Origin: Methylocella silvestris BL2
GTDB taxonomy: Bacteria; Pseudomonadota; Alphaproteobacteria; Rhizobiales; Beijerinckiaceae
Reading direction: 5' to 3'
Assembly: GCF_000021745.1 (NCBI RefSeq)
Contig: NC_011666.1
Span: 2,304,501 to 2,368,500 of the forward strand
Length of the DNA stretch: 64,000 nucleotides
A program made the position numbers and the translations under genes. How positions within the stretch are numbered: position 1 is the stretch's first letter; each line of letters begins with the position of its first letter. Positions 37,091-63,540 of the stretch are shown in pieces. The notes beneath the pieces were generated by a model. It did not search any database. It worked only from the letters and a program-made list of their open reading frames with translations, and had not been told where the DNA came from.

Positions 37091-37214
37091 TGGCGGAGAG
37101 GGAGTCCGCCAGACTGTTAATATTATCAACGACTTATAGATTTATTTCTCGTTTTGTCCTAGATATTGTCCTAGCCGTGCAGCATCCATTATGCACGCTC
37201 TCAACTCTCCGCCA
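37091..37214. other. Possible attachment-site remnant (tRNA-Ser-like end)
   Basis: TGGCGGAGAGGGAG at 37091-37104 matches the reverse complement of many bacterial tRNA-Ser 3' ends, and CTCTCCGCCA at 37205-37214 is the inverse of its first 10 bases. Temperate phages often integrate at that tRNA end. No full tRNA is present, so this could be an att half-site or chance. Confidence 0.25.
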
Positions 37215-44185: not shown

Positions 44186-45384
44186 GGGCGTACACTGTAG
44201 ATAACCTCCGTGACGTCGCTTCGGACCGGTCCCTTGGACGCGCCCATCGTCGAGTGGACGTGAGGAATTTCTATGACCTTAATGCTCTGTCGGAAGTAAC
44301 GGGTCATGATTTCGGGAATTCGCTGGCGAGAAGCTGGAAACAATCCGTTTGTGGGATAGCTTAATACGAAGTCTGCGCGCAGATCCGCACATCGGCGGAT
44401 AAGCTCTTCCATGGCAAATTCAACTTTGGTTTTCTGACAGAAGATCGAAACCTCTCGATCAGCACGGTAGAGACCGCGGCCGGATGTAGCGGGATGATCA
44501 TAAAGAACGGCCGTCTCATAAAGGTGATAATAGCGGGAATATTGATCTTTGGTGTATGGAGGATCTGCATAAATTACGCGAGGCCGAGCGCACTCTCCGG
44601 TCAGTTCTTCGAGCAGCGCAATCGCATCTCGCCTGTAAACGCGATTTTTGCTACGCCAGCGCGTCGAACCGACGGCACCTAGGCCACCGCAAGCCGTGAG
44701 CCACTCAGTCCATATATCGCGCAGGCGTTGATTTACAAATCGAGCGCGATTTTGCTGCTTCGGCAATAGAGGCTGGGCGAAGTGGCCTGTCGTTGTGGAG
44801 CATCTTGACAGCGCCACGCACAAACCAATCACTCCCCAACGATGAAGTTCGGCCGAGATCAACTCGTGACAAAGAGAATAATCAAGCGCGAAACGTATAC
44901 TGTCAATGTCAATCGCCTGCCTCAGCGACCAATATGTTCCTGCAAATCGTCTTGCGAAAAGATCGTGACTGGGCGATCCGTGACTGGCGCACGGGCCGTT
45001 GGCCGCTAAAATAGCTTCTTCGAAGAGAGCCGCCAGCCGTCTCGTCCCCCGCGCTTTGAGCGCGACATCCTCACGCTGCAGTTTTTCCTCGTGCAGAAAT
45101 CTTAACCGTCTCCGGTTTTCTGAGAAAAAGCTGTGGCAGGTCTCCGCCAGGGAACTACTATCTGGATGTGTCACTTTGGAACAAAACTGCGCCGAAGCGA
45201 CGTAAGCAGCAAAGTGTTGCAAATCGTTCGACCAAACCTGTCGACTTGGGGCGACAGCCGTCCCAACCGAGCACATTCCTGAAAAAGCATCTAGAAATGC
45301 GCCATGTCGGCAGTCGCTTATCAGCCTGCTAACGACCTCCGCCAGCTGGCGCTTCGTGCCCATATAGGAAATGCCTAGTGACAC
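44182..45384 (-). CDS. DNA adenine methylase (D12-type)
   Basis: A 400-residue N6-adenine methyltransferase from the GTG at 45384 (SLGISYMGTKRQLAEVV); a longer frame to 45447 adds 21 residues. The SAM pocket is FLDAFSGMCSVGTAV, and the catalytic DPPY is in VIYADPPYTKDQYSRYYH. The middle carries a large target-recognition insert. The order FxGxG before DPPY fits the D12/Dam class. First in the operon with ParB and an unknown protein; a lone methylase of this size on an island often belongs to a restriction or anti-phage set. Confidence 0.85.
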   Translation of the reverse strand: MSLGISYMGTKRQLAEVVSRLISDCRHGAFLDAFSGMCSVGTAVAPSRQVWSNDLQHFAAYVASAQFCSKVTHPDSSSLAETCHSFFSENRRRLRFLHEEKLQREDVALKARGTRRLAALFEEAILAANGPCASHGSPSHDLFARRFAGTYWSLRQAIDIDSIRFALDYSLCHELISAELHRWGVIGLCVALSRCSTTTGHFAQPLLPKQQNRARFVNQRLRDIWTEWLTACGGLGAVGSTRWRSKNRVYRRDAIALLEELTGECARPRVIYADPPYTKDQYSRYYHLYETAVLYDHPATSGRGLYRADREVSIFCQKTKVEFAMEELIRRCADLRADFVLSYPTNGLFPASRQRIPEIMTRYFRQSIKVIEIPHVHSTMGASKGPVRSDVTEVIYSVRP

Positions 45385-45950
45385 GTCTGCTCCCCTACAC
45401 GCAGTTACCGCGATCCGTCGCGCATGGCAAGCCGCTTCACGGGGCAATTTTCATAGTCGCACGACAATCTAAACTAATCGGAAATAAGCGGCACCTCGAA
45501 GGACAACTCAGCGTGGGCGCGCCAACCGCTCCGCGGCTCGCACGAACGCCCCGCATCGCCTTCGAGCCGTGCTGCGACGCATGATGCACGCGAACATACG
45601 GCGGCGACCGAGGCAGGCCGGCTCAGCCTGCCCCTTCGGCGGCTGCCCCATGAGAAGCCGTGGCAATAGCATCCTCGCTTTTAGGAGTCTTTCACTCGCC
45701 ATCTTTGTGACCTGCTGCAGGCGTCCCCAATTGTCGCGTCAGTCTGGTTGAGTAGCCGCGACCGCACGGGTCTCCAGCGCAAAACATGGGGATTCAAGGA
45801 TCGAGAAGAGTTATTGCCAGGCGAATCGATGCGTATGTAAAAGTCCGACTTGCACACGGCGCCCTCGCCTTGACTGCGCTTCCGGCATTTTGACTGCCAG
45901 GGCGGCCGATCGGCTCCCAGCCGCAGGCGCTGTTCTTGCTGCGACGGGAG
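45385..45950. other. Region upstream of the methylase operon
   Basis: No supported gene. It should hold the promoter of the methylase operon. A GC-rich hairpin (GGCAGGC at 45612-45618 with GCCTGCC at 45626-45632) could act as a terminator or boundary. Short frames here are shadows. Confidence 0.45.
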
Positions 45951-46142
45951 TCATCGAGCGCCGATCGCGCTCTCGCCCATGCGAAGCTCGATGCCGGCGG
46001 CGCGAAGAGTGTGGATTTTCTGCAGGATCGATTTTTCGCTGACGCCGAAGCGTTCGGCGAGGGCGCTGGCGGCAACGCCATGGTTCCAGGCCTTGATGAG
46101 CCGCGCCTCGCGATCCTTCGACCAGACGAAGGGCCGCGCCAT
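45951..46142 (-). CDS. Small HTH protein (GcrA-like opening)
   Basis: A 63-residue protein. It starts FVWSKDREARLIKAWNHGV and continues SALAERFGVSEKSILQKI, a helix-turn-helix arrangement like the SANT/GcrA-type W-x-x-[ED]-R-x-x-x-L-I opening. It overlaps the preceding gene by one base (TAATG). The likely role is DNA binding in the phage remnant; the partner is unknown. Confidence 0.6.
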   Translation of the reverse strand: MARPFVWSKDREARLIKAWNHGVAASALAERFGVSEKSILQKIHTLRAAGIELRMGESAIGAR

Positions 46143-46402
46143 TACGCTGTCTCCGCGCGAGCGTCGCCGCCGCGAGCAACCTCGAGATAGCGGGCGATCA
46201 ATTTGTGGCCGAAGCGCTCTGTCATGTCGTTTCGCTCCTCGATTGGCGTTAGGCGGTGCTGCAACCGCATCAACGACGCATGCGCGCAAAGGCCAATCAC
46301 GAAGGCTTCCTGCATATCCTTGCGGCCGCAGCTCGCCATTGCTGCTATGGCGTCGTCGAAGATTGCCTCTTCCTCGGTTGTCATGTCGCTCGCGCCTTTC
46401 AA
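46142..46402 (-). CDS. Small acidic hypothetical protein
   Basis: An 86-residue protein (80 from the second ATG) with acidic N-terminus (MTTEEEAIFDDAIAAMASCG) and a helical rest. No family is recognised. It is coupled to the small HTH gene downstream and lies next to the capsid gene, so it is probably part of the prophage remnant. Confidence 0.5.
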   Translation of the reverse strand: MKGASDMTTEEEAIFDDAIAAMASCGRKDMQEAFVIGLCAHASLMRLQHRLTPIEERNDMTERFGHKLIARYLEVARGGDARAETA

Positions 46403-46560
46403 AGCAATGAGAGCGCAGCGGCTCTATGGGAAGCCGCCGCGCCTGGCGCGCGCTTTACGCTGAGGCTCTGCTTTCCCAGCGCTGCCGGAGCGCGCCATGG
46501 CGCACCTGCCGTCGAAGAAAGGATGAAATTCGACGGCGCTTCGTAGGTGCGCCAATCTCG

Positions 46561-47682
46561 TCAGCTTGCGCTGTTCTGGAGATATCTCAGCGCGGCTCCC
46601 GCGCTCCAGTTGGCGACCCGGCTGTCCGCTCGTGCGAACGCGACGAAGGCCGTCTGGCCTTTCGAAAGATAGCCGGAATCATTCATCCGTAGGATCGCGG
46701 CGCCGTTGACGAAGCGCGCCACGAAAGAGGCAAAATCGCCGAACAGAATCGGCTTGGCGCTCGCCGCCATCGCCGGCATATCATTGTTGATGACGACGGG
46801 ACGGCCGAACAGTCGCCCCTGCGGCGGCGGTCCGCCGGGTTGGAGAAGCGGATCGGGAAACCATAGCGGCCAGCCTTGCGCCGCGGCGATCTTCTGCACC
46901 GCCAGCAATGTCATATCGTTCATCATCCAAACGCAACGCAAGCTCTGGCGATAGGCGGCGTCGACGCTCGAATAGAGCGCGATCAAGCCGTCCGAGGTCA
47001 GCGACGTTGTGTTGGCCGCCGGGAGCGTTACGCCAAGGCTGGCGCCGGTCAGCGCGCCCTGCGGCTGGTTTACGCCCGTTCCGCTAGTAAAGAAACTGTT
47101 CATGCCTCGCGCAAGGCGCGCAGCCAACAAATCGAGCAGCATATCCTCGATGTTTACGGCGCTGTCCTGCAAGACCTCCAGCGAAACAGGAATGATTCCC
47201 GACGAGAATTTACTGGCGTTCAGCCCAAGCGTTCCGACTGGCATATCCACCGCATTGAGCGTGCTGTTCTCGGCGACAATGCCTGCGCCCATAGAAGCCT
47301 CGTCGACCAAGGGCCAGGAAAGCGGACCGCCGGTATCGGTCGTGATGACGCGCGCCACCGACGCAACAGGGGTGTAGAGTTCGACGCGCCGCAGAAGACT
47401 CGCGGCGACGGGCGCCGGCAGGAGATAGCCGCCGGCGAGGGGCGTGGCTTCCGCGATGTTGAGAACGCGCGCTTGTTGCGCGTCGCCCAAATGCCGCGCC
47501 TCCTGCGCCGAGAGCGCCTTGTGGCCGAGGCGAAGCGCCTTCACGAAGGCCGATCGCGCCGCGCGTATCTCGTCATGGGCGCGCTTGGCCTCAGCGTCGC
47601 CGTCGAGGCGATCGATCGCCGCGAAGATCGCGTCGGCCGAATCGGCCGTCTTTTGTGTGAATTGAGCGCCGGGCGCAAGCAT
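46561..47682 (-). CDS. HK97-family phage major capsid protein
   Basis: A 373-residue capsid protein. The fold is recognisable from LAGGYLLPAPVAASLLRRV, SKFSSGIIPVSLEVLQDSAVNIEDML, WMMNDMTLLAVQKI and FGRPVVINNDMP. The N-terminal delta region is short. No portal, protease, terminase or tail genes are adjacent, and an IS3 fragment abuts its 5' end. It is therefore an orphan remnant of a prophage, though the frame itself is intact. Confidence 0.88.
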   Translation of the reverse strand: MLAPGAQFTQKTADSADAIFAAIDRLDGDAEAKRAHDEIRAARSAFVKALRLGHKALSAQEARHLGDAQQARVLNIAEATPLAGGYLLPAPVAASLLRRVELYTPVASVARVITTDTGGPLSWPLVDEASMGAGIVAENSTLNAVDMPVGTLGLNASKFSSGIIPVSLEVLQDSAVNIEDMLLDLLAARLARGMNSFFTSGTGVNQPQGALTGASLGVTLPAANTTSLTSDGLIALYSSVDAAYRQSLRCVWMMNDMTLLAVQKIAAAQGWPLWFPDPLLQPGGPPPQGRLFGRPVVINNDMPAMAASAKPILFGDFASFVARFVNGAAILRMNDSGYLSKGQTAFVAFARADSRVANWSAGAALRYLQNSAS

Positions 47683-49777: not shown

Positions 49778-50932
49778 TCAGGAGGACAGCCCGGACACAA
49801 CAGACCGTCTGTTGGGGTTCAAGGCCGCCATGGCCGTGTCGTCAAGCTCCAGGTGGCCGCGGACCAGCTCGGCCGGCGTCAGAGCGAGCCATTGGTTCAG
49901 CGCGACATCCTTGAACTCGGGCTTGTTGAATACATTGAGCACGCGCACCCGCGTATTGCCGATATTCTCGATGTAATGCGCCAGCGTCTTTGGCACATAG
50001 CCGACATCGCCGGCCCTGTAATTGAAAGTACGGGCCTTGGATGTCGCGTCGAACACGGTCATGCGCGCTTCGCCCTCGATGTAAAACTGCCACTCATCAG
50101 CGTCGGGGTGCCAGTGAATTTCACGCATCGCGCCGGGCTCCAGATCGATGATGAGCGCGGCCATGTTGGTCACCGGGAAATTCCTGACGTCGATGATCGT
50201 GGTCTTGCCGCCGTCCCATTGGCTCGGCGCAACATCGCCGCCATGGATTGTGAAGGGATTGGCTGGGCGCTGCTTCGGCAATCTGGCGAGAACCTCTTCG
50301 AGAGGCGGGGGAACCGGAAGCGGAAAGATGTATTTTTCCTTGGGGGGAAGATGAGCGAAGTGCTCCGCCGGAATGCCGAAATTCTTGGCGAGAACATCAA
50401 TGGGCGTATGCGCCATGAGTTCGGTCACCAGAAGCGTCTCGTTCTCGGAGAAATTGCCGTCGTCGAAGACGAGAAGAAACTCGCAACCTTCCGCAAGACC
50501 CTGGATGGAATGGGGGAAGCCGGCCGGGAAAAGCCAAATGTCGCCGGCCTTGAGATCGTCGATGTAGACATTCCTGTCGGGATCGACGACGGTGATGCGG
50601 CACTGTCCCTGCAGCACATAGCCCCATTCCGCTTCCTTGTGCCAATGCAGCTCGCGCACCACGCCGGGACCAAGGCGCATATCGACGCCGGCCATTGCCT
50701 TTGCCGCGGGCAACTCCCGAACTGTGACCTCCCGCGCCCAGCCCCCCTCTTCGAGGCGATTATGGGCCATGCCGAACGAAAACTTCAGATTTGGGATCGA
50801 CCCGTTGTCTGTCGCCGGGGGCAGGAGAATGTCAGGGTTTTGCCGATCTAGCTCCAAATTGCGAGGGCCCGGATCCGTTGCGCCATATTCGCCGCGAATG
50901 GGCTGGGGGGCGTCAAAACTTTCCTTCGTCAT
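49778..50932 (-). CDS. oxdC: Oxalate decarboxylase (bicupin)
   Basis: A 384-residue two-cupin enzyme that splits oxalate to formate and CO2 and consumes a proton. Both Mn sites are visible: RELHWHKEAEWGYVL with PAGFPHSIQ, and REIHWHPDADEWQFYI with AHYIENIG. The flexible lid reads SENET, close to SENST of the decarboxylase and unlike DASN of oxidase variants. No secretion signal is seen. It lies downstream of the frameshifted regulator and has the 32-bp element 357 bp upstream of its ATG. Confidence 0.93.
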   Translation of the reverse strand: MTKESFDAPQPIRGEYGATDPGPRNLELDRQNPDILLPPATDNGSIPNLKFSFGMAHNRLEEGGWAREVTVRELPAAKAMAGVDMRLGPGVVRELHWHKEAEWGYVLQGQCRITVVDPDRNVYIDDLKAGDIWLFPAGFPHSIQGLAEGCEFLLVFDDGNFSENETLLVTELMAHTPIDVLAKNFGIPAEHFAHLPPKEKYIFPLPVPPPLEEVLARLPKQRPANPFTIHGGDVAPSQWDGGKTTIIDVRNFPVTNMAALIIDLEPGAMREIHWHPDADEWQFYIEGEARMTVFDATSKARTFNYRAGDVGYVPKTLAHYIENIGNTRVRVLNVFNKPEFKDVALNQWLALTPAELVRGHLELDDTAMAALNPNRRSVVSGLSS

Positions 50933-51408
50933 GGCATGCCTTCATGTTTGATTGAAAAATAGCTAACGCGGCCGACGCGGTAACCTGCATTCAAGCGGCG
51001 CCTTCATCTCGTCGGGTGGCGATAGCGATCTTGCGCTGGTTAGAGGTCTCACCCAAATTGCCGAGGAGATGGCCGTTCGCGAGGGGACACAGCAATGTCG
51101 GAGGGATCTATCGAGGACCACACAGTCGCTCGGACATTGGCAATGACGCGGCGGCCGCGGCTCCGTAAGTCCGACTGGATGTTAGAAATAGCATATCTCC
51201 TCAAAATATCGGCAAACCTCAGTGCTTGTGGTTGAGGCGATTGCGTTAGATTGCTGCACGCGTGGAAGAATTGCGCCTGACCCCGCGAGGCGCGAGTTTT
51301 ACGTTGGTAAATTTTGTAAAGGAATGATCCTGGAAGGCGCTCTGAAGAGCGCGCGAGCTTTTTCAGGCGCCGGCTTAGACACACTAGGCTCGTCGGAATA
51401 GATGCAAA
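50933..51408. other. Leader region of oxdC
   Basis: A 476-bp gap without a supported gene. It holds the 32-bp element at 51290-51321. An ORF of 111 codons on the minus strand (51049-51384) is rich in Arg and Ser and is not believed. The distance from the element to the oxdC start is long, so the promoter may be near the element with a long untranslated leader, or there may be a second promoter. Confidence 0.5.
51290..51321 (-). promoter_or_regulatory. 32-bp element, copy upstream of oxdC
   Basis: All 32 bases match 58315-58346, and in each case the element has the same orientation relative to the decarboxylase operon downstream. Read toward oxdC it contains TTTAC, TTTAC and GTAAA with 4-bp spacers, that is, a direct repeat plus an inverted half-site, which suits a winged-helix dimer. 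It is a likely binding site for the regulators encoded next to it. Confidence 0.8.
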
Positions 51409-54266
51409 TCAGTGCATCGAGTTTAGTTCGTGGAGCAGCTGCCGCGCGGAGACGAGATCTCGGGTTTCAAAACCCTCTGTAAATCGTCCATATATGGTTT
51501 CAAGCATGGAGCGAGCTTGACCTACTCTCCCTTGCTGCGCCACCACCCGCGCCAATGGAAGAGCGGCCTTCAACTCCCAGCTCAGCGCCGACTGCTTTCG
51601 GGCTTCGTCCATTGAGCGAACGAAGATTCGTTCCGCTGCGGCGAAATCCGCATGAGGCTGAGCCAATAGAATGTCGCCATGAGCCCTGAGCAAGTCGGGT
51701 AACCACAATGTCCCTCCGCCTTGCTCAGCCAGCGCCAACGCCTCCCGTATCGTGTCGAGGGCCTCATCGGACCTGCCGGAAAGCATCAGTCCCTCCGCCA
51801 GGGCGCGCAGCGGTTCCAGCCTCATTATGTGGTATCTGGCGGGGTCCATTGCCTCCAGAGCATCGCGCAAGATCGCCACGCCGGACCCAGGATCTCCGCT
51901 TGCGACCATGAGTTCGCCTTTGAGCCCGACGCCGACCGCATGATAGGGAGCGAGGGAATATTGGGTGGTCTTCCTGATCGCACGTTCCGTGGGCTCGATT
52001 GCTTCTTTGTGAGCGCCCCGCTCCATATCAATACGGGCGTCGAAAACAGAAGAAAAACGCAATAGGAGACTGGATGATCGAAGGCAGTTGCATCGTCAAT
52101 CCCCTGACGCAGAAGTTTAAGGGACCGATCCGGAAATCCGCATAACCACAGAGATTTTACTAGAGCTGTCAGTCCTCGTGCATTGTAGTCATATCCGAAG
52201 AAGTTCACCGGTTCCAAAGTCATATTTGCTCTAAGCTCGAATCCAATCTCACAGTGGCGCACAGCAGCCGGTTGATCCCCAGCCAGGTGATAAGCCGCGC
52301 CGAGTATCCATTGGGTCATTGCTCTCTCATTAGAGCGTCCCCGCGCTTCAACGAGCGCAGCGCTTTGTTGCACTGCAGCCAAAGCGCCAGCTATATCGCC
52401 AAGACGAGTAAGAAAGATATAGCGACCCAAAAGCAGGTGAATTTCATGTTGTGTATGGCCTATAGCCTGAGCGATCTCCAGTGCGCGTTCAAGGGCGCAG
52501 CTGATTTCCTGGTTGTCGCCTCCAGTGAACATGGACGACATCGCCAAAGCTCCTTGGAGGTCCAGTTCAAGCAGTGTCCCTCGATTCGTCTCATCAAGTG
52601 CTCTTGTGGCTAATCGGCACCATTTCTGAATTTCGTCGAGCAGTGAAAGCCCAAAAAACAAAGGCGCCGCGCGGGCGGCGAGTCGAACGCCGATGAGCGG
52701 TTCGCCCGAACCGGAAAAACTTGTTCCGAGCGCTTTGCGAATATTTCCGACTTGAAGCGGGTTGATACCCGGGCTGCGGTCGCCGAGAGTTGCGGCCTCA
52801 ATTGTCGCTGGATCAAGGAGAGCGGCAAAGTAACATGCATGGCGTTGTGCGGCTGCATCTTCCTCGCCGCTTTCGCGAAGCTTAAGCGAGGCGAACGAGC
52901 GCGTCACGTCCAATAGCCGAAAATAGGGCCGTCCAGCTATTGACGATGCCGTTATCAACGACTTGTCGGCGAGGCTGGCGACTGCATTGATTACTGTCTG
53001 CGGCCCGCTATCGGACACGCCAGCCACCGAACTCGCCGCCTCAAGCGTGAACTGACCAACGAAGACCGAAAGCAGCCGGAAGACCCTCTGCTCGTCGGGT
53101 GACAGAAGCGTGAAGCTCCATTCAAGCGTTGCATGCAGCGTCTGGTGTCTGGGCTGTACACTACGCCGACCGAGAAGGAAGAGTTCAGCGCCGCCGTGGA
53201 GAAGGTCTGCAGTTCCGCGGATCCCATATGTCCCCACCCGACTGGCCGAAAGTTCAATAGCCAGGGCGATGCCGTCGAGCCTACGGCAGATATTGGCGAC
53301 AATCGGCGCGTCGGCTTCGCTAAGCTCGGAGCGATAGCCGCTCGAGGCCGCTCGCTCCATAAACAGCTGGACAGCGGGCGAAGCCAAAGCCTGTGCGGCT
53401 GATGGCGTTTCATAAATCGGGCTACTGAGCGGCGAGAGAAGATGAACGTTTTCGTTTTGAACACGGAGCGCTTCGCGGCTGGTCGCCAACAGATACACCG
53501 AAGGTGCCTCACGGAAAAGCCGTTCGGCAAGCGGCGCTATTGTCTCGATCAAGTGCTCGCAACTGTCGAGTACGATTAGCATGCGCTTGTCGATCAAGAA
53601 AGCGCAGAGATTGGCCTCTGCATTAGCACCCTGAACGGAGCAACCAAGTGTAGAGGCGATGGTGCTGACGGCCAGCGATGGTTCACTGATCGAACCGAGG
53701 TCGACGAAGTAGACAGCATCCTCTCCGAAATCGCGAAGGACGGTGTGCGCGACCACCACTGCTGCAGTCGTCTTCCCGATACCCCCCGGCCCGACAATAC
53801 TAACGAAGCGCCGCGACAACAGCAGCAACGTCAGGATGTCGATGGCTTCCTTGCGGCCGACCAAGAATATCGGCGCGGGCGGGAGGTTTGTTGCGGGCTG
53901 CTCCGATGAGGGCACGAATGGCGATGTGACTCGGTGCATAGATCGTTGAATTGGGGCCACGAAGGCATAGCCCCTTCCAGCGACAGTCATGACATATCGC
54001 CCTCCATCGACTCCGTCTCCGAGCGACTTGCGAAGCGCGGCAATTTGCACCCGCAAATTACCCTCTTCGACGACAGCATGGGGCCAAACTTGCGCGATAA
54101 GTTCGCGCGCGCTCACGACATCTCCGCCGCGATGCGTCAATGCGATCAGCAGGTCGAGCGCACGGCTGCCGATGGCCACCGGCGAGCCTTCCTTAAGAAG
54201 CAGTCGCTCTGCAGGAAGTAAGCGGAAGCGCTCAAAAGAAATCTGTTCCCCAGGCCTCAATCTCAT
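51409..54266 (-). pseudogene. Winged-helix/ATPase regulator 1, frameshifted
   Basis: Paralogue of the intact protein at 55186. From the ATG at 54266: an OmpR-type winged helix (ALDLLIALTHRGGDVVSARE, VVEEGNLRVQIAALRKSLGD), a P-loop ATPase (SIVGPGGIGKTTAAV; Walker B RMLIVLDSCEHLIE; TSREALRV), then helical repeats. Near 52010-52020 (a CCCC run) the frame breaks. The last 190 residues (KEAIEPTERAIRK..., SALSWELKAALPLARVV, IYGRFTEGFETRDL) continue in another frame up to the normal end. Either a recent inactivation or a sequence error; it is upstream of oxdC. Confidence 0.85.
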
Positions 54267-55185
54267 ACCCTTGCCCTTGCCGCCCAGATCGCATCCGAAA
54301 AGAGTCTTCGAAAGATTAGGCGCCCGCAGCATGACAGACAACGCCAATCATGAAAGGTCAAAAAAAGCCGCGACTTGGGATCGCGGGGCCGGAGGCGACG
54401 CGGATCGTTGATCGGTTTGCCGTTTTGGCCATTTCTTTGCCTAACGAGCTGCTATCCTCAAGCATAATCGATACCGGGGTCGCGGCGGATGGGATGGACC
54501 ATCTCTCGCTGCAAGCAGCTTGAGACCCGGGTCTGGCCACTGACGCGGACCGGAAGATCCATTTTTGCCTGCGCCTCGACGAAAGCCTTATAAAGTATCT
54601 CATTGCCGATGGCTTTGGGGCGCGCTTCTCAAGCCGCCGCACCTGCGATCTGCAGGCCCCCATTGGTCCGGTCCCGCGGCTGTCGAGGCTCGCAGGAGGT
54701 GGTCTGGCCGCCGCCAGCCACCATTCCTCGACGATCCGCAATGCGGAGCCGGCGGCCGCTTCTTTCGTCGATATCATCGATTTGCCAAATCTTCGACATA
54801 AGCGCTATCTTCGGGAACGTCGCTGAGCCTTTCCTGATCTCCCCGGAGCGGCGGCTTGCCCTGATCCCGGTGTCGGGTCGCAAGCGCGCTACCCCGAGCC
54901 ATGGCCGCCGGTGCGTCACATGGTTTAACGGACGATCCGGCCGCCAACGCTTCCAGCATGAGGCCGAGACGCCAAAACTCTGGTCGCCGTCGGGATATCG
55001 GAAATGTAGGCCCGGCGGCGACGGTGATCCTGAAATACGTAAACAGGCGCTATGGGAGGAGTCGCCCAAGCGCCTCAATGTCGAGCGCGATCGCGGAGCC
55101 TCGACGCAATGCTGATATGTTTCGGGCAGCCCACACGTTGGGATTACTGCCGTGAAGTGAGGACAGGACGGCGAGCGCGGGTATC
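54267..55185. other. Large gap between the divergent regulators
   Basis: 919 bp without a supported gene, containing both regulator promoters. Frames on both strands (for example 54629-55078 minus) are shadow-like. A plus-strand stretch at 54540-54800 stays open in another frame (CLRLDESLIKYLIADGFGAR) and could be part of a decayed gene, but no family is recognised. Confidence 0.4.
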
Positions 55186-58056
55186 ATGGCAAATCGCACC
55201 GAACCATTGAGCGGAGAGGCGGTGCTTTTTGGCCCCTATCGCCTTTCTGCAAGCGAGCGGCTGCTCTCTAGAGATGGAGCGCCGGTCGCCATCAGTGGCA
55301 GGGCCCTGGACATACTTATCGCCCTGATCGAACGAGCAGGCGAGGTCGTAAGCGTACAGGAACTGCTCGATCGCGTTTGGCCACAAACAATCGTTGAGGA
55401 ACCCAATCTTCGTGTGCACATCGCGACACTTCGTCGGGTGCTGGGCAACGACAGCCAGGGATCACGATATGTCATAAACGTGCCGCGGCGCGGCTATTCC
55501 ATCGTGACGCCGCTGTACCGCTTAGCGCGCGAAGGCGCCGTAGCCATCGACGCCACGGTAATTTCCGAACGCCAGCCCTCCCTTCCGACACCGCTGCAAT
55601 CGATGATCGGCAGGAGCGGGACCGTCGCGGAGTTGTCTGTCCAAATCTTGTCGAAGCGTTTCATTAGCGTAATTGGACCAGGCGGCATCGGAAAAACCAC
55701 TGTGGCGGTCGCGGTTGCCCACGCGGTTCGCCAACACTTTGGCGATGACTCGGTGTTTTTTGTCGACCTGAGCTCGATCGCAGATAAGGAAGACGTGGCG
55801 AGCGCCGTCGCGGCCGCAATCGGCTGTTCCGTCCCGGGTGTTGATCCAGAGCCGTTCATACTTGCCTTTCTGGCCAACAAGCACTTTCTCATTGTGTTTG
55901 ACGGTTGCGAGCATGTGATAGAGGCCGCCGCGCCTTTGGCCGCGCGTCTCGTCGGCGGAGCGCCTTCGGGGCGCTTTTTGGCGACCAGCCGAGAGGCGTT
56001 GCGCATCGAGGGCGAGGAGGCGTATCTGCTATCGGCACTCGAAGGCCCGGCTAAGGACACACCTTCGGCCGACGAGGCAATTGCCTCACCAGCCATTCAG
56101 CTTTTTATGGAGAGGGCAACTTCTGCCGGTTATTCGATTGAACTCAGTGACAGCGATGCGCCGATTGTGGCAGACATCTGCCGTCGGTTAGATGGCATCC
56201 CCCTGGCAATCGAGCTTGCTGCGAGCCGGGTCGGGGTCTACGGCATCCTGGGGACCGCCGATCTTCTCGATCACGATGCTGCGCTGCAGTTGCAAGGCCT
56301 AAGGAGCGCCGCGCCGCGACACCGAACGCTGCAGGCGATGCTGGACTGGAGCTTCAGACTGTTGTCGCGGGATGAGCAGCAAATTCTTTGCATGCTGTCA
56401 GTCTTTGTCGGCACGTTCACCTGGCGTGCGGTACTAGCGGTCGCAGGACCCGTCGAAGCAGAAACGAAGGGCTTAGCCGCCGCAGTTAGCGGCCTTGTCG
56501 ATAAGTCTCTCGTCTCCGTCTCATCAACGAGCAGACCTGTATGTTACCGGCTTTTGGATACCACCCGAATATATGCAGCTTCTATGCTCAAGGATCGTGG
56601 CCATGAGGAGGCAGTCGCTGAGAGACACGCCTCGTTCTTTGTTGACTTTCTCAAAGAAGTCACAAACGGAGGTTCGGAGTTTGATGGCCGCGAAGCGGCG
56701 AACTACATACCTCACCTCGGGAACATTCGCAAAGCGCTGGCATGGAGTTTTTCCAGTTTAGGCAACGAATCGATCGGACTCGAACTCGCCGCCCTAGCGG
56801 GCCCCCTCTTTCTGGGACTGTCGCAATTCGGCGAGTGCCAGCGATGGTGCCGTCGGGCCATGTCCAAGTTGAGTGTCAGCGAGCGAGGCGCCCGGCGAGA
56901 ACTTCAGCTTGCGTACTTGCTTGCGCGCTCGGCAGTGTATATTACGGGCGATATCGAGGACGTCAGGGCGATATTTGACCATGCCCTCGGTTTATCCACG
57001 AAATTTCAGGACACTCGTAGTCAACTCAATTTGCTCGCGGACCTTAATGTTGTCCTAACTCGCCGTGGCGATTTCAAAGGAGCGCTCGCGGCCGCGAAGG
57101 AAAGCGCCACCCTGGCCGACCGCGCAGGGGGCTCTGTTGAGAAAGTGCTGGCCGAGTGGATGCTGGGAGCATCCTATCACGCTTCGGGCGATCAGGCGGC
57201 CGCGCTGCGCCATTGTAACCTTGGCTTTCGGCTGGCTTCACACGCGACCTTGAAGCAGTTCGACTTACTGAGTGAAGCGCGCGCTCGATTTGCCCTCGCT
57301 CGATCGCTATGGCTTCAGGGTTTTCCGAATCAAGCTTTAGACTCTGCGCGTCAGGCGATCAGTCAAATGGCGAGATACCGCCATCATGTTTCCTATTGTT
57401 TCGTGCTCGTCTATACTATTCCTGTTTTCTTGTGGTGCGGTGATCTTGTAGCTGCGGATGAACTCGTCGAGGTCGCCATCGCTCATGCAACCAAATACTC
57501 GCTTTCTGTCTTTCAGACCATTGCTCGCGCGCAAAAAGGCGAACTCATCCTGGCGAATGGCGATGTGTCAGAGGGACTGAAAATATTACAAGACGCATAC
57601 AGGGAAATGCTTGTTGATTCTTACCACATCGTAGCCTCATCGACATGCTGCGTATTGGCGAAAGCGCTTGCAAGCGCAGGGCGGGGAGAGGAAGCGCGGT
57701 CCGTGCTCCATGCTGCGCTCACGCGCGCTGAGCGGGTTGACGAACAATGTTGGCGGCCAGATTTGTTGCGAACGCATGGCGAGATCCTGCTTATGCTACC
57801 GGAGCCGGAGAGCGCTGGAGGGGAACAGTTGCTCCTCAGCGCCATAGATTGCGCCAGGAAGCAATCCGCGCTCGGGTGGGAGCTTAAAGCCGCAATCCCT
57901 CTCGCGCGAATGTGGCACGAGAATGCCAGGAGCGACGCTGCGTATTTGATGCTGGAGGGGATTTATGGCCGGTTCACGGAAGGATTCGCGACCCACGATC
58001 TAACCGCCGCGCGCCTCCTTCTGGAGGAATGCCGCCCGTCTATTATCGGCCGCTAA
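55186..58056 (+). CDS. Winged-helix/ATPase transcriptional regulator 2
   Basis: A 956-residue regulator. Residues 10-105 are an OmpR-type winged helix (ALDILIALIERAGEVVSVQEL, VEEPNLRVHIATLRRVLG, VPRRGYSIV). About 130-400 is an AP/NB-ARC-like ATPase (SVIGPGGIGKTTVAVAVAH; HFLIVFDGCEHVIE; LATSREALRIEGE; GIPLAIELAASRVGVYG). The rest is TPR-like helices (KVLAEWMLGASYHASGDQAAALRHC). It divergently faces regulator 1 and precedes the decarboxylase-oxidase operon, with the 32-bp element between them. Such proteins act as ligand- and ATP-gated activators; the signal is unknown. Confidence 0.9.
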   Translation: MANRTEPLSGEAVLFGPYRLSASERLLSRDGAPVAISGRALDILIALIERAGEVVSVQELLDRVWPQTIVEEPNLRVHIATLRRVLGNDSQGSRYVINVPRRGYSIVTPLYRLAREGAVAIDATVISERQPSLPTPLQSMIGRSGTVAELSVQILSKRFISVIGPGGIGKTTVAVAVAHAVRQHFGDDSVFFVDLSSIADKEDVASAVAAAIGCSVPGVDPEPFILAFLANKHFLIVFDGCEHVIEAAAPLAARLVGGAPSGRFLATSREALRIEGEEAYLLSALEGPAKDTPSADEAIASPAIQLFMERATSAGYSIELSDSDAPIVADICRRLDGIPLAIELAASRVGVYGILGTADLLDHDAALQLQGLRSAAPRHRTLQAMLDWSFRLLSRDEQQILCMLSVFVGTFTWRAVLAVAGPVEAETKGLAAAVSGLVDKSLVSVSSTSRPVCYRLLDTTRIYAASMLKDRGHEEAVAERHASFFVDFLKEVTNGGSEFDGREAANYIPHLGNIRKALAWSFSSLGNESIGLELAALAGPLFLGLSQFGECQRWCRRAMSKLSVSERGARRELQLAYLLARSAVYITGDIEDVRAIFDHALGLSTKFQDTRSQLNLLADLNVVLTRRGDFKGALAAAKESATLADRAGGSVEKVLAEWMLGASYHASGDQAAALRHCNLGFRLASHATLKQFDLLSEARARFALARSLWLQGFPNQALDSARQAISQMARYRHHVSYCFVLVYTIPVFLWCGDLVAADELVEVAIAHATKYSLSVFQTIARAQKGELILANGDVSEGLKILQDAYREMLVDSYHIVASSTCCVLAKALASAGRGEEARSVLHAALTRAERVDEQCWRPDLLRTHGEILLMLPEPESAGGEQLLLSAIDCARKQSALGWELKAAIPLARMWHENARSDAAYLMLEGIYGRFTEGFATHDLTAARLLLEECRPSIIGR

Positions 58057-58427
58057 CAATAAGTGCTTATTCTGCTGTCAAGCTGTCTGCTATTAAAAAC
58101 GCGAAGGTCGAGACGTTACGCAGGCCTCTTGTCGTGCTGTTCTGTATTCCTGTTGCCGCAATTAGACCCCGGAAGCATCTGCGTTTCGTCAGGCGCTGGC
58201 GACCATGTCAGAAAGCGTTCTCCTCGTTTATCGAGGCAGATCGCGAAGCACGGCGGGGGTTAATCAGGAGGCTTTTGGGGTACGCCAATCAGCGAATGCT
58301 CCGAAAAAGTTTTTCTTTACAAAATTTACCAACGTAAAACTCGCGCTGAGGGCAGTCTGACGCGATCCTTTCATGAGCGACCAAACGAACGTAAGTGGCT
58401 CGAGGGTCAGGAAGGATTTGTGCGGAT
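58057..58427. other. Leader region of the decarboxylase-oxidase operon
   Basis: A 371-bp gap without a supported gene. It contains the 32-bp element at 58315-58346, 81 bp before the first start codon. AT content is higher around the element, as expected for a promoter. Confidence 0.5.
58315..58346 (+). promoter_or_regulatory. 32-bp element, copy upstream of the adc-poxB operon
   Basis: Exact copy of 51290-51321 in inverse orientation on the chromosome but the same orientation toward the gene it precedes. The pentamers TTTAC (58316-58320), TTTAC (58325-58329) and GTAAA (58334-58338) give 4-bp spacers. The similarity fades quickly on both sides, so the match is not part of a longer duplication. 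Confidence 0.8.
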
Positions 58428-59228
58428 ATGCTCATGGGCTATACGGTTCCGCTCAGCCCGCAAGGACGTTCAGAGCTAACGCCGGCGCCTCCCTGGCACT
58501 ATTCATGCGACTGCATTGCCATCGAGTATTGGGCCGACCCGCTCGCTGTCGCCGCACTCCTGCCGCCCGGTCTCGCACCAGACGAGAGTTCCCACGGACG
58601 CGCTTTTTTCTGGTTCATCGATTGGCAGTTCACAGGCTCCAATGATGAGGTGACCGATCCGGCCCGTTATCAGTACCGAGAGGCTCTCGTGCTCATCGAG
58701 GCGCGCCTTGACGGACGGCAGGTCAATCATTGCCCATACTGCTTTGTGAACAATGACGCCGCCATTACGCGCTGCTGGATCCAAGGCTATCCTGCCAAAT
58801 TGGGCAATATCTTTCAGACTCGAAGCTTCGCTGCGCCAAGTCTTGCCGCCGCACCGATCGTCAGGGGAAGCCGCTTCGGCGCCAGTATTTCGGCGCATGG
58901 CGAGCGCATGGCGACCGCCCGCATTCAGCTGGAGGAAAAAATCGATGATGCGCGATCTGTTTTCAGCCGCCCAACCACTATGCGTCGCTACTTCCCAAAC
59001 TTGGCCGCAAGCCGACGTGAAGGACCTGCCGTCGACGAACTCGTTCTATCCCTGATGGACGATCTGCTATTTACGGATGTCTGGGCTGGATCCGCCGAAC
59101 TGGCGCTACCCGTCGTAGCAGGCGAGGACATGCACATGATTGCGCCGCTACGGGTTGGTCGCGGCTATCGCTTCGGCATGGCTTACTCCGTGACAGACCT
59201 CCCGGTTCTGAAGAACTACATCGCCTAG
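58428..59228 (+). CDS. Acetoacetate-decarboxylase-family enzyme
   Basis: A 266-residue protein of the ADC family. VNNDAAITRCWIQGYPAKLGNIF aligns with the active-site region of acetoacetate decarboxylase, where the Schiff-base Lys follows EGYP; here it reads QGYPAK. The N-terminus (LAPDESSHGRAFFWFIDWQF) and the GRGYRFGMAYSVTDLPVL end also fit. Family members decarboxylate acetoacetate or act on other keto acids, so the substrate is not certain. The ATG at 58428 is used. It leads an operon with poxB-like and cydAB genes. Confidence 0.8.
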   Translation: MLMGYTVPLSPQGRSELTPAPPWHYSCDCIAIEYWADPLAVAALLPPGLAPDESSHGRAFFWFIDWQFTGSNDEVTDPARYQYREALVLIEARLDGRQVNHCPYCFVNNDAAITRCWIQGYPAKLGNIFQTRSFAAPSLAAAPIVRGSRFGASISAHGERMATARIQLEEKIDDARSVFSRPTTMRRYFPNLAASRREGPAVDELVLSLMDDLLFTDVWAGSAELALPVVAGEDMHMIAPLRVGRGYRFGMAYSVTDLPVLKNYIA

Positions 59229-59303: not shown

Positions 59304-61022
59304 ATGAGCAAGAAAGTTGCCGACGTATTGGTGGAGACGCTTGTTTCTGCCGGCGTCAAGAACTGCTACGGGATCGTCGGCGACACGATGAACCAGATCG
59401 CGCATTCAATCGATCGCAGCAGCATCGATTTCGTGCATATGCGGCATGAAGAAGCAGGCGCTTTCGCTGCCGCCGCTGAGGCGCAGCTGACGGGAGGTCT
59501 GGCTGCGTGCGCTGGCACCTGTGGCCCCGGCAGTCTCCATTTCATCAATGGCCTTTACGAGGCCAATCGTAACCGCGCCCCGGTAGTTCTCATTGCGACC
59601 CAGATCGTGCGCCGCGACCTTGGCTTCGATTCCATTCAGGAGGTGGATTTCAAGGATGTCTTCAGGGGCTGCAGCGTCTACTGCGACATGATTTTGACCC
59701 CGGAGCATGCCCGCCGCAAGACAGTCGCTGCTTGCCAGGCTGCGTTGACGAAACAGGGCGTGGCCGTCCTCGTGGTGCCCGCCGATGTAGCCAATGCCGC
59801 AGCCCCCGATGAGCCGCCTTACGCCATTCACACCCGTCGCCCCGTAGTTCGCCCCAGCGACGCCGACCTTGAAGCGATCGCCGCCATCCTGAACTCGAGC
59901 GAAGCGATCACCATCTATGCAGGCTCCGGCTGTGAAAACGCACACGACGAAGTCGTGGCGACAGCGGCCAAGTTGAAGGCCCCGATGGCGCACACCTCGC
60001 GCGGCAAGGACTTCCTGGAGTACAACAATCCTTACAATGTCGGAATGACCGGCATTATCGGCGGCGCTCCCGGCTATCACGCTGTTCTGGACTGCGACGT
60101 CCTGCTGCTGCTTGGCGCAGATTTCGCGTGGGGGCAATTCTACCCGGACAACGCCAGGATTATTCAGATCGACATCAATCCAACTCATCTTGGACGACGC
60201 CATCCGGTCGAGATTGGTCTTGTCGGCAGTATCGCGGCGACGCTGGAAGCCCTGCTGCCTCGGATCAGGCAGCATCCCGACAACGCGTTCCTGAAAGCCT
60301 GCCTTCATCGTTACGACAAGGAAAAGGCAACAGACAAAGCTGAACGCCCGGAGCATGGCGACGCCGCCATCTCTGGCGTCCATTTGACCAAGGTCATCAA
60401 CAAATATGCCGCTGAAGACGCGCTGTTTGCCTCCGACGATGGCACGCCGACCGTTTGGATGACCCGCCATATTGACACGGCTGGCAAGCGGCGCACCTTC
60501 GCCAGCCTGCTGCATGGCACCATGGCCGGCGGGATGCCGTCGGCGCTCGGACTGCAGAAGTGCCAGCCTGGCCGCCAGGTGATCTCGTTGTCCGGGGATG
60601 GCGGGCTCGCCATGCTGTTCGGCGACCTTCTGACAACTGTGCAGGAGAATTTGCCGATCAAGATCGCGGTCTACGACAACGGCAAGCTTGGCTTCGTCGA
60701 TATCGAGCAAAAGGCGGCGGGACTGGTCCCGGTCTTTACGGATCTCAAGAATCCCGACTTCGGCGCAGTAGCCACGGCGATGGGCTTGTGGGGCGCAAGC
60801 ATATCGAAAGTCGGCGAGTTGGAGGAGGCGGTGCAGGAATGGCTGGCCCAGAAAGGACCGGCGCTGCTGCATGTGAAGGTTAAACCTATGGAGCTGGTGA
60901 TGCCCCCCACGCCCTTCGTGCAGCCCGACGCTATCATCGGAATGGCCGTGTACAGCGCGAAGGCGGTGCTGCAGGGCAAAGGGCACGATGTCTGGGAGAT
61001 GGTGATCGACAACATCCCTTAA
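59304..61022 (+). CDS. poxB: Pyruvate oxidase/quinone-dependent pyruvate dehydrogenase
   Basis: A 572-residue thiamine-diphosphate flavoenzyme of the PoxB type, which turns pyruvate into acetate and CO2 and passes electrons to ubiquinone. RHEEAGAFAAAAEAQLTGGLA has the catalytic Glu, TCGPGSLHFINGLYEA the flavin-side block, and GDGGLAMLFGDLLTTVQENLPIKI with DNGKLG the ThDP-Mg motif. The C-terminus after about 540 resembles the membrane-binding end of PoxB. It lies 75 bp after the ADC gene and 88 bp before cydA, so a single operon is likely. Confidence 0.85.
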   Translation: MSKKVADVLVETLVSAGVKNCYGIVGDTMNQIAHSIDRSSIDFVHMRHEEAGAFAAAAEAQLTGGLAACAGTCGPGSLHFINGLYEANRNRAPVVLIATQIVRRDLGFDSIQEVDFKDVFRGCSVYCDMILTPEHARRKTVAACQAALTKQGVAVLVVPADVANAAAPDEPPYAIHTRRPVVRPSDADLEAIAAILNSSEAITIYAGSGCENAHDEVVATAAKLKAPMAHTSRGKDFLEYNNPYNVGMTGIIGGAPGYHAVLDCDVLLLLGADFAWGQFYPDNARIIQIDINPTHLGRRHPVEIGLVGSIAATLEALLPRIRQHPDNAFLKACLHRYDKEKATDKAERPEHGDAAISGVHLTKVINKYAAEDALFASDDGTPTVWMTRHIDTAGKRRTFASLLHGTMAGGMPSALGLQKCQPGRQVISLSGDGGLAMLFGDLLTTVQENLPIKIAVYDNGKLGFVDIEQKAAGLVPVFTDLKNPDFGAVATAMGLWGASISKVGELEEAVQEWLAQKGPALLHVKVKPMELVMPPTPFVQPDAIIGMAVYSAKAVLQGKGHDVWEMVIDNIP

Positions 61023-61110
61023 AGCGCCGGTGTTTAGCCCTTGCGGGATTTGTGAACTTTCACGCCCCCATTGGCTTTTTCTTTCCGGGACTCAAGAGGG
61101 ATCCATCCCG

Positions 61111-62529
61111 ATGGATATCACGGCGCTGCTCCTGTCCCGCATCCAGTTCGCGGTAACAATTTCTTTCCATATCATCTTCCCGGCCTTCACGGTCGGGTTA
61201 GCCGCGTGGCTGTGCGTGCTGGAAGCGCGATGGCTTGTCACCGGAAGGCCCGTCTATCGACGCCTGTTCGACTTCTGGCGCGGAATCTTCGCGGTCGCGT
61301 TTGGGATGGGCGTGGTCTCGGGCATCGTCATGGCGTTCCAGTTCGGCACCAATTGGAGCGAACTCTCCAGAAGAACTGGCGCCATCCAGGGTCCGCTTCT
61401 GCTCTATGAAAGTTTCACAGCCTTCGCGCTTGAAGCCAGTTTCTTTGGGGTATTGATGTTTGGCAGGGAGCGCGTGCCAAAATGGTTTTTCTTTTTTTCT
61501 TGCGCGATGGTGGCGCTCGGAACGACTTTGTCTTCGTTCTGGATCATGGTCAACAATAGTTGGATGCAATGGCCGGTAGGCTACCAAGAGCTGCCGTCGG
61601 GCGTGTTCGAGCCCACCAGTTGGTTCGATATCATCTTCAGCTCCGTGGTGTGGGTGCGATTTCCACACATGTTGCTGGCAGCCTATATCACCTCCTCCTT
61701 CTGTATCGCTGCGACCGGGGCGTGGCATCTGCTGCGCGGCGCGTTCAAGGCTGAGGCCGAGATTATGCTGCGCATGTCTCTCGGTTTGGCTGCGGTCCTG
61801 GTGCCAGCGCAGATGCTGGTCGGGCATCTCGTCGGCGACTACACACACGATAAGCAGCCAGCCAAGTTCGCAGCCATCGAGGCGCGCTGGAATGACGAGC
61901 AGCCCGCTTCCGAAGTTTTGATCGCCTGGCCCAACGAAAAGACCGAATCGAATGACTATGCGATCAGCATCCCCTATCTCGGCAGCCTGATCGGCTCGAT
62001 GAGCCTGACCGCCAAGGAAGTCGGTCTTAAGAGCTCTCCTCCCGAAGATCGTCCGCCAGTGTTGATTCCCTTCTTCGCCTTTCGAGTAATGGTCGGATGC
62101 GGGCTGCTGATGCTCGCGCTCGCATGGTATGGCAGCCTGCAGATCGTTCGTCGACGTATCGAAGGACAACGCGGCCTGCTCATTGCGATCTTTCTTTCCT
62201 TTCCGATTGGCTTCATCGCGACGCTGACGGGCTGGTTTACCGCGGAAGTCGGCCGACAGCCCTGGACCGTTTACGGTTTGCTGCGAACCGCGGATGCTGC
62301 AACGCCCTTCCTTACCGCGCCGGAGGTTGCCGCAACACTAGCCATCTTCTCCGTCGTCTACAGCGTGATCTTCGCTGCTGGCGCCGCCTTTATCCTTCGC
62401 CTGCTTCGCCGCGGCCCAGTGTCACGCCCCATGCCAGAGCCGGGTGAAAGTAACCCAAAACGACCCCTTTCAATTCCCATTGACAGGCCGAGCCTGATTC
62501 CCCGCGCCGATCGTCCAACCGAGGGGTAA
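61111..62529 (+). CDS. cydA: Cytochrome bd-type quinol oxidase subunit I
   Basis: A 472-residue polytopic oxidase subunit. LSRIQFAVTISFHIIFPAFTVGLAAW carries the haem-ligand His of the N-terminus, FQFGTNWSELSRRTGAIQGPLL the conserved GTNW block, and NNSWMQWPVGYQ and WFTAEVGRQPW the quinol-oxidation and haem regions. The Q-loop is of the short type, as in cyanide-insensitive (CioA) oxidases. The ATG is at 61111, and cydB follows after 3 bp. It reoxidises quinol made by PoxB. Confidence 0.93.
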   Translation: MDITALLLSRIQFAVTISFHIIFPAFTVGLAAWLCVLEARWLVTGRPVYRRLFDFWRGIFAVAFGMGVVSGIVMAFQFGTNWSELSRRTGAIQGPLLLYESFTAFALEASFFGVLMFGRERVPKWFFFFSCAMVALGTTLSSFWIMVNNSWMQWPVGYQELPSGVFEPTSWFDIIFSSVVWVRFPHMLLAAYITSSFCIAATGAWHLLRGAFKAEAEIMLRMSLGLAAVLVPAQMLVGHLVGDYTHDKQPAKFAAIEARWNDEQPASEVLIAWPNEKTESNDYAISIPYLGSLIGSMSLTAKEVGLKSSPPEDRPPVLIPFFAFRVMVGCGLLMLALAWYGSLQIVRRRIEGQRGLLIAIFLSFPIGFIATLTGWFTAEVGRQPWTVYGLLRTADAATPFLTAPEVAATLAIFSVVYSVIFAAGAAFILRLLRRGPVSRPMPEPGESNPKRPLSIPIDRPSLIPRADRPTEG

Positions 62530-62532
62530 TTT

Positions 62533-63540
62533 ATGACCGAATTCTGGACGGCCGTACTCGCCTTCACCATCCTGCTATACGTGCTGCTCGATGGCTTCGA
62601 TCTCGGCGTTGGCATGCTGCTTGCGCTGATGCCCAATGATCGCGGCAGGCGCCATATGTTGGCCGCCATAGCGCCGGTCTGGGATGGCAACGAGACGTGG
62701 CTGGTTGTGACTGCCACAATCCTGTTTGGCGTGTTCCCGCTGGTATACTCAATTCTGCTGTCCGCTTTTTATCTGCCCGTGTTCGTCATGCTGGCCGGAT
62801 TGATCCTGCGTGGGGTCTCGTTCGAATTTCGTGAAAAGAGCCCGCACCACCGGGCTTTTTGGGATAGTTGTTTCATTCTGGGTTCGCTTGTTGCGTCCTT
62901 CATCCAGGGAATGATGATCGGCGCGCTGGTCGAGGGTTTGCCGGTCGAGAACGGCCGCTACGCCGGGGGACCCTTCGGGTGGCTCTCATCTTTCGCCCTG
63001 CTGTGCGGAGCGGGCCTTTGTGTAGGCTATGCCTTGCTCGGCGCCGGCTGGCTGACTCGAAAGACGACGCAAGACGTGCAGGCTCTCGCCTTTGGCATCC
63101 TGCCGAGTCTTCTCGCGGGCGTGCTCGCCTTCCTCGCCATCATCTTCGTCTATTCGCTACTTCTGGATCTTGCTGTCATGCACCGCTGGCGCGAACGGCC
63201 GGTGCTCTTCGTGTTTCCGCTGATGGGGATCGCCGCCTGCGTGATCATGGCGGTTTCAATCCGGCGCCGCCGAGAATTGTTGCCGTTTCTCAGCGGCGCC
63301 AGTATCTTCGCTGCCGCATTCTTGACCCTGGCTGTTTCGTTCTATCCCTACATGATCCCCTTCTCGGTAACTATTGCGGAGGCAGCGGCGCCGCGGTCAA
63401 GTCAAGCATTTATGTTTTGGGGCGCCGGCCTGATTGTTCTCCCAATCACAATCATCTACACACTGGTCGTTTACTTTGTCTTCAAGGGGAAGGTGATCGA
63501 CCTCGAGTCTTACGACGAGGGGCCGCCTGTTTCCGATTGA
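62533..63540 (+). CDS. cydB: Cytochrome bd-type quinol oxidase subunit II
   Basis: A 335-residue subunit II with about eight membrane spans. LLYVLLDGFDLGVGMLLAL, APVWDGNETWLVV and LRGVSFEFREK are the classic CydB/CioB blocks. The C-terminus (ITIIYTLVVYFVFKGKV) ends in a short charged tail. Tightly spaced after cydA. No cydX-like small gene was seen, although a frame of that size could be missed. Confidence 0.93.
   Translation: MTEFWTAVLAFTILLYVLLDGFDLGVGMLLALMPNDRGRRHMLAAIAPVWDGNETWLVVTATILFGVFPLVYSILLSAFYLPVFVMLAGLILRGVSFEFREKSPHHRAFWDSCFILGSLVASFIQGMMIGALVEGLPVENGRYAGGPFGWLSSFALLCGAGLCVGYALLGAGWLTRKTTQDVQALAFGILPSLLAGVLAFLAIIFVYSLLLDLAVMHRWRERPVLFVFPLMGIAACVIMAVSIRRRRELLPFLSGASIFAAAFLTLAVSFYPYMIPFSVTIAEAAAPRSSQAFMFWGAGLIVLPITIIYTLVVYFVFKGKVIDLESYDEGPPVSD

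Follow-up and report, generated by a model that had tools for sequence, protein, structure and literature searches.

We analysed a 64,000-nucleotide stretch of Methylocella silvestris BL2 (contig NC_011666.1, positions 2,304,501 to 2,368,500; hereafter the window) that holds two paralogous regulator genes, REG1 and REG2, each encoding a winged helix-turn-helix (wHTH) domain, a NOD-type ATPase and TPR repeats. Each regulator gene is followed by a copy of a 32-bp element and then by an operon, namely oxdC for copy 1 and adc-poxB-cydAB for copy 2 (Table 1). As the initial annotation had described, the two copies are identical and inverted relative to each other, and each points toward its operon; they lie 87 bp 3' of the end of the second REG1 frame (51409) and 258 bp 3' of the REG2 stop (58056), respectively. 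None of 100 shuffles of the window contained a match to the 32-mer at up to three mismatches. Searching the full genome, as the annotation had proposed, added a third exact copy at genome positions 2374330-2374361 on the minus strand (L004:10331-10362), 5.8 kb beyond the window, which precedes an efflux operon of YtcA-like, MdtN, MdtO-like and TolC-like genes; MdtN scores above its model's cut-off, and the YtcA, MdtO and TolC models score under theirs. We propose that the element serves as operator-promoter for a clade of such regulators (REGs), bound by their OmpR-type winged helix and switched by a ligand, and that REG1 and REG2 run one acid-consumption and efflux regulon, a reading drawn from sequence comparison to which we assign a probability of about 0.72.

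Table 1 Features of the window, with positions counted from its first nucleotide
Feature	Position	Strand	Remarks
Putative att copy of tRNA-Ser 3' end, island edge	37091-37104	+	14-bp exact repeat of L004:18655-18668, same orientation, E 0.049
oxdC, bicupin oxalate decarboxylase	49778-50932	-	TIGR03404 565.6 bits, cut-off 254.2
Promoter-leader 3' of copy 1	51160-51289	-	Homologous to leaders of copies 2 and 3 (77/127 and 87/117 identical)
Element copy 1	51290-51321	-	Exact 32-mer; 389 bp ahead of oxdC start
REG1, wHTH-NB-ARC-TPR regulator	51409-54347	-	Two frames, 51825-54347 and 51409-52062; 46-49% identical to REG2
REG2, 956-aa wHTH-NOD-TPR (STAND) regulator	55186-58056	+	Pfam Trans_reg_C 56 bits
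Element copy 2	58315-58346	+	Exact 32-mer; 113 bp ahead of ADC start
Promoter-leader, copy 2 to ADC start	58347-58427	+	97/127 identical to copy 3 over 130 bp reaching into ADC start
Acetoacetate decarboxylase family protein (ADC, gene adc)	58428-59228	+	PF06314 141.6 bits
poxB-like thiamine pyrophosphate enzyme, ubiquinone-dependent pyruvate dehydrogenase type	59304-61022	+	Best NCBIfam PRK09124 675.9 bits, under cut-off 792
cydA, cytochrome bd subunit I	61030-62529	+	PF01654
cydB, cytochrome bd subunit II	62533-63540	+	PF02322

The initial annotation had regarded a common dispersed repeat as the finding that would undo its proposal. All three copies do fall within 18.6 kb on a likely island, which would suit a mobile or recombination repeat, yet the whole 4.31-Mb genome holds just these three at up to three mismatches (reversed-pattern control, 0), each ahead of an operon and in the same orientation toward it. 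Outside this genome, the element consensus at up to three mismatches matched none of the 384 other genomes of the class (385 scanned with our own), and its 24-base core at the same tolerance matched our own genome only among 60 (our own and 59 relatives). A relaxed exact pattern found nothing in an 84,980-species collection from which our own genome is perhaps absent, a pattern that was too strict when judged by our later alignment of the site family, and blastn against plasmids returned an Aminobacter site at E 0.5, among chance-level matches. A dispersed repeat is thus highly improbable.

We next compared the flanks of the copies, which the initial annotation had found not to match. Upstream this is so (z between -0.2 and 1.4 against shuffles). 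Downstream, the copies are alike (Table 1), with z = 9.3 for copies 1 and 2, 10.3 for copies 1 and 3 and 27.1 for copies 2 and 3 against shuffles; the homologous stretch is 61-76% identical and spans the element to the adc start. The annotation's statement on the flanks is thus wrong for the downstream side: each 32-bp copy heads a duplicated promoter-leader, within which these 32 bp have been conserved much more strongly than the remainder. Ahead of the efflux operon, a 31-codon frame (L004:10153-10248, minus strand) begins MLKGHIAPLSPEE, while ADC begins MLMGYTVPLSPQG, and the two starts lie 114 and 113 bp from their element, respectively. The ADC-like start and the equal distance point to a copied adc promoter-leader, of which about 17 adc codons are kept, as judged by eye.

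Because the downstream flanks are homologous, common descent of the promoter-leader contributes to the identity of the copies. The element might accordingly be merely the best-kept stretch of this leader, such as a plain promoter or an alternative sigma-factor site with no dedicated regulator, and the homology of all three flanks, with an adc-like start even at copy 3, agrees with that view. At the leader identity of 0.61-0.76, however, 32 unchanged positions have a chance of 1e-7 to 1.5e-4 per pair, which is improbable without selection or conversion. Moreover, other genera carry sites of different sequence and the same repeat geometry, often with the same REG neighbour. We therefore consider a plain promoter quite unlikely.

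A genome scan with an ADC alignment gave 87 loci, of which the best 80 were used; at E 1e-30, none of 198 other genomes sampled from the family has ADC. Five sites align without gaps over 29 bases: CTTTACAAAATTTACCAACGTAAAACTCG in the window, CTTCACAACGTTTCACAAGTTTCAACTCG in Rhizobium sp. Root1220 (L041), CTTCACAACGATTCACAAATCTAAACTCG in Rhizobiales AFS010580 (L044), TTTTACCGGAATTTACAAACCAAAACTCG in Kaistia soli (L040) and TTTTACGAAATTTTACAACGTAAAACTTG on an Aminobacter plasmid (L029). Their common geometry is TTYAC-N5-TTYAC-N5-NNAAC-TCG, a direct repeat with a period of 10 bp, in which the Aminobacter site ends in TTG. The three TTTAC/GTAAA half-sites with 4-bp spacers that the initial annotation had noted are present in the window element, but the inverted GTAAA is kept in the window and Aminobacter only, and the direct repeat is what the sites share. 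In Rhizobium, Sinorhizobium and Kaistia, relatives of the element precede an acetoacetate decarboxylase gene (or an AraC-decarboxylase set), and others precede sensor-kinase genes; the distance from site to ADC is 111 bp in L044 and 117 bp in L041, close to that in the window.

A leave-one-out profile ranked the true site first in its own locus in all five cases. The full profile gave four further sites (L025, L042, L043 and L044) at 26.6-30.9 bits, where the best of three shuffled sets reached 24.2, and each of the four precedes a sensor-kinase gene. When the window element was aligned locally, with gaps allowed, to 27 regions upstream of ADC, six regions (L040, L041, L044, L050, L059 and L061) attained the 95% level of their shuffles and 21 did not. 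Candidates from this alignment beyond L041 and L044 were dropped, acceptance resting on position and geometry; in L040, one arm matched before ADC, and the complete site of this locus, located separately, precedes AraC. As a separate observation, two Paraburkholderia loci (L077 and L084) share TAGGTAAGTTTTACAACGTG, which lies about 190 bp ahead of ADC, between ADC and a divergent response regulator, and resembles one of the element's arms.

We then examined where the sites lie relative to REG genes. Eight genomes or records hold 17 sites at up to three mismatches and 14 at up to two, with 3 for the reversed pattern. Six of the 17 are located 4-260 bp 3' of a REG gene on the same strand, behind window REG1, window REG2, a Kaistia REG, two REGs of AFS010580 and one of Sinorhizobium B11; the last is not independent, because it is 98.4% identical over 4 kb to one of the AFS010580 loci. 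The second AFS010580 site (L159) is directly behind a REG 32% identical to REG2, and its operon carries a major facilitator superfamily (MFS) transporter and no decarboxylase match, Pfam matching the transporter and the REG only. Among the remaining sites, one precedes ADC near a contig end in Root1220, one precedes the efflux operon of our genome, the Aminobacter site lies next to a response regulator and faces away, and three (L153, L156 and L158, each with three mismatches) are without clear meaning.

In a tree of 31 REGs built on the first 620 residues (the row for L106, cut in the wrong frame, is disregarded), one clade with a local support of 0.995 contains REG1 and REG2 together with a REG from every other genome or record in which the site occurs, so that this clade is represented in 8/8, including the genomes of L025, L042 and L043. 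REG1 is sister to the Kaistia REG (0.976) and not to REG2, for which the tree gives no resolved branching inside the clade. The two thus look like old paralogues rather than island-local copies. Regulators of this make-up are common in the order: at least 29 of the 397 genomes sampled, our own included, have a REG match at E 1e-120, a census in which two candidates were scored per genome and short forms would be missed. Of the 28 REG loci fetched from it besides those of the window, the Kaistia locus falls in the clade, 17 were placed outside it and 10 were not placed.

The winged helix of the regulators (PF00486, cut-off 26.2 bits) scores 56 bits in REG2 and 49.1 in REG1 and belongs to the OmpR/PhoB fold. 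Domains of this fold bind direct repeats about one helical turn apart, and the REG winged helix may do so at the repeats of 10-bp period found in silico. An AlphaFold model of REG2 from a 25-row alignment (predicted local distance difference test, pLDDT, 85.5; predicted template-modelling score, pTM, 0.74) places the strands and helices of the winged helix at residues 12-113, with the recognition helix at about 72-85, followed by a stretch of very low confidence (115-131), the next helix and NOD from about 144, and helical repeats at 474-955. P-loop residues G164, G166, G167, G169, K170 and T171 are invariant in 25 REGs, and NB-ARC scores 25.0 bits in REG1 (cut-off 23.5) and 22.9, just under, in REG2. 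In Foldseek, the best match of the REG2 model is the STAND protein 6mfv (E 1.9e-12, TMq 0.41), followed by Apaf-1; for the TPR region, MalT domain III (1hz4) comes at rank 46 (TMt 0.63) with many other TPR proteins in between, and the Pfam TPR_MalT model gives 37.2 bits, under its cut-off of 45. With its NB-ARC/NOD P-loop ATPase and C-terminal helical-repeat sensor, REG2 is a STAND protein. It is neither a SARP, as Pfam matches no BTA domain after the winged helix and the NCBIfam AfsR model gives 50.1 bits of a 1430 cut-off, nor a MalT, as Pfam matches no GerE (LuxR-type DNA-binding) domain in it. REG1 occupies two open frames, with the change from one to the other near 52005, and its winged-helix and NB-ARC matches lie within one open frame; the frame change may stem from a sequencing error or from decay, or it may leave a functional short form. 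Short forms with wHTH and NOD only exist in the REG clade (L162-L164), which suggests that a REG1 lacking its final TPRs may remain active.

Several observations weigh against our reading. The activity of REG1 is uncertain owing to its frameshift; the second TTTAC of the window element is one base out of register, at a 9-bp spacing; no clear -10 box was seen at a fixed distance from the element; and the identity of the three copies is not fully independent, since their downstream descent is shared. Sites of at least 26 bits are rare, occurring in 5/80 ADC loci (L040-L044), which argues for one lineage's solution and not for a general feature of ADC, and in L042, L043 and also L025 the site precedes the kinase gene, not ADC. 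The REG of L159 has a site although it falls outside the REG clade. Finally, an Asn in the recognition helix was rejected as a sufficient predictor of the site. In a first set of 46 helix matches, 10 of which had an open 3' end and were dropped, sites followed 5/11 REGs of the N class and 1/25 of the S class, with REG1 scored as a miss since its first frame ends early and with L044 and L160 98.4% identical. In a second set, the counts were 6/18 and 0/14, the 6/18 including duplicates and two weak three-mismatch sites, and one G-class REG with no site and five loci with no helix match being left out. Both splits were made after the helices had been seen, and clade membership fits better.

The kinase genes suggest another possible binder: in rhizobia, the two-component system found alongside the gene set includes a LuxR-type response regulator, and if this bound the site, linkage with REG would be incidental. 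Five of the 17 sites lie ahead of a sensor-kinase gene at distances of 17 to about 150 bp from its first possible start, one more lies beside a response regulator, and the DNA fetched at L025, L042 and L043 holds no REG. A close response regulator (76-100%), however, is found in just four of the eight site-bearing genomes or records, and none in the window genome exceeds 52%; at L159, where the site follows a REG, the 14 kb fetched contain no kinase match; and the REG clade is present in all eight, including the genomes of those three loci. We consider this explanation unlikely, and that the site is an operator of the REG clade very probable. In L025, L042 and L043, oxdC, adc, poxB, tautomerase, efflux and malonate decarboxylase genes accompany the two-component system, with the element before the kinase gene. 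In addition, L025:12093-12125, before cydA, contains two direct ACGTA(A/T)GGTTAG repeats, perhaps a response-regulator site.

The initial annotation's proposal of a common site and a single regulon for the two paralogues gains support from the comparison, through the clade's presence in all eight and the six sites behind REGs, and is weakened by the frameshift of REG1; that REG1 and REG2 share the site is, on this sequence evidence, probable. From the copies, their homologous leaders, the repeat geometry, the REG-clade linkage and the domain make-up, we infer binding, activation, shared recognition, an inducer and a physiological role as follows. REG protomers would sit on the 10-bp-spaced direct repeats along one face of the helix; a ligand would open NOD, and REG would oligomerise and activate the operon behind the site. 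One regulon would comprise oxdC, adc-poxB-cydAB and the YtcA-MdtN-MdtO-TolC type efflux operon, the last probably recruited through placement of an adc promoter-leader copy before it, together with about 17 adc codons. The product set suggests a defence against organic acids by proton-consuming decarboxylation, respiratory pyruvate disposal and export of acids or phenolics; judged by gene content, a role in acid or phenolic stress has even odds.

Known regulators share parts of this scheme. CadC is membrane-bound, is not known to have a NOD or TPR and is tied to the acid response by decarboxylation, and MalT binds DNA through a C-terminal LuxR-type domain. Unlike in MalT, the DNA-binding domain of REG2 is N-terminal and OmpR-type, and the closest solved relative of REG2 by sequence is CadC (PDB 5ju7; winged helix only, E 2.2e-12), which NCBIfam names an activator of lysine decarboxylation. 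MalT of Escherichia coli, a STAND activator, resembles REG2 in having a NOD and a helical sensor; its order of events is ligand, ATP, oligomer and then DNA (PMC10427625), and by analogy we predict ligand-driven oligomerisation of REG2. AfsR of Streptomyces coelicolor, a large SARP, has an N-terminal OmpR-type DNA-binding domain, NOD and TPR as REG2 does, and binds direct repeats side by side, overlapping the -35 region (PMC10936776). It differs in the BTA domain after its winged helix, where in REG2 a disordered linker leads to NOD, and in its repeats of 11 bp, compared with 10 bp in the REG-clade site. By analogy with AfsR and MalT, REG is probably an activator, not a repressor. In Bradyrhizobium japonicum, the BjG30 locus couples an acetoacetate decarboxylase and a proton-driven efflux pump that are co-induced by the phenolic genistein, with pH or proton balance as the authors' rationale; it uses an RND pump and TetR regulators, unlike the window set, and "winged helix", "promoter" and "direct repeat" are absent as terms from the text (PMC4070704). 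The oxdC of Bacillus subtilis responds to external acid and not to benzoate (PMC2788229).

Triple 10-bp repeats also occur behind the genes of some other REG subfamilies. Behind five related REGs (L169-L173, one genus, taken for Bradyrhizobium), 34 bp 3' of the gene, lies the triple 10-bp direct repeat CTNGC-AACTC-CTAAC-AACTT-CTAAC; CTAGC-ACCTT-CTAAC-AATTT-CTAAC follows L106, and TAAC occurs three times at 10 bp behind L167. Across 62 REG regions, a set that counts REG1 twice and leaves out REG2 and L159, the pattern YTNRC-N5-YTNAC-N7-AAC has 8 matches within the 250 bp that follow, where its frequency in the examined loci predicts 0.09, with 5/8 matches orthologous and the pattern drawn up on the same data; 54/62 regions have no match, and the window's own sites do not strictly fit it. 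A triple-repeat count at lag 10 places 8/62 regions at 14 or more of 18, compared with about 1 in shuffles, and none at 15; lags 12 and 15 give 4 regions each, and lags 12, 13 and 16 give one region each at 15. It is tentatively conceivable, though somewhat short of probable, that a large wHTH-NOD-TPR family of Hyphomicrobiales and relatives consists of ligand-switched activators acting on triple 10-bp direct repeats just behind their own gene, with a clade-specific repeat, such as TTYAC for the clade described here or CTAAC for certain members of the Bradyrhizobium order, and that mobile acid-defence islands grow by copying promoter-leaders to new operons.

Among the matches listed from open-licence papers, no operator is described for wHTH-NOD-TPR proteins in proteobacteria, and regulators of such make-up are the Streptomyces SARP relatives; the parts are of known kinds, and their combination, the geometry and the regulon appear undescribed in those matches. 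The predicted operator, the three-operon regulon and the search rule of 10-bp repeats behind the regulator gene make the REG family directly testable, and the adc leader copied before the efflux operon would be a readable case of regulon growth through promoter duplication.

The cluster likely sits on an island of about 41 kb integrated at tRNA-Ser. The right end of the island carries a tyrosine integrase, primase-like genes and tRNA-Ser(CGA) (L004:18655-18744), opposite the putative att copy in the window (Table 1), and GC content is lower beyond about 39 kb of the window. At 43217-47682 on the minus strand, we also noted ParB-like, DNA-methylase-like and phage-capsid-like frames, named by eye.

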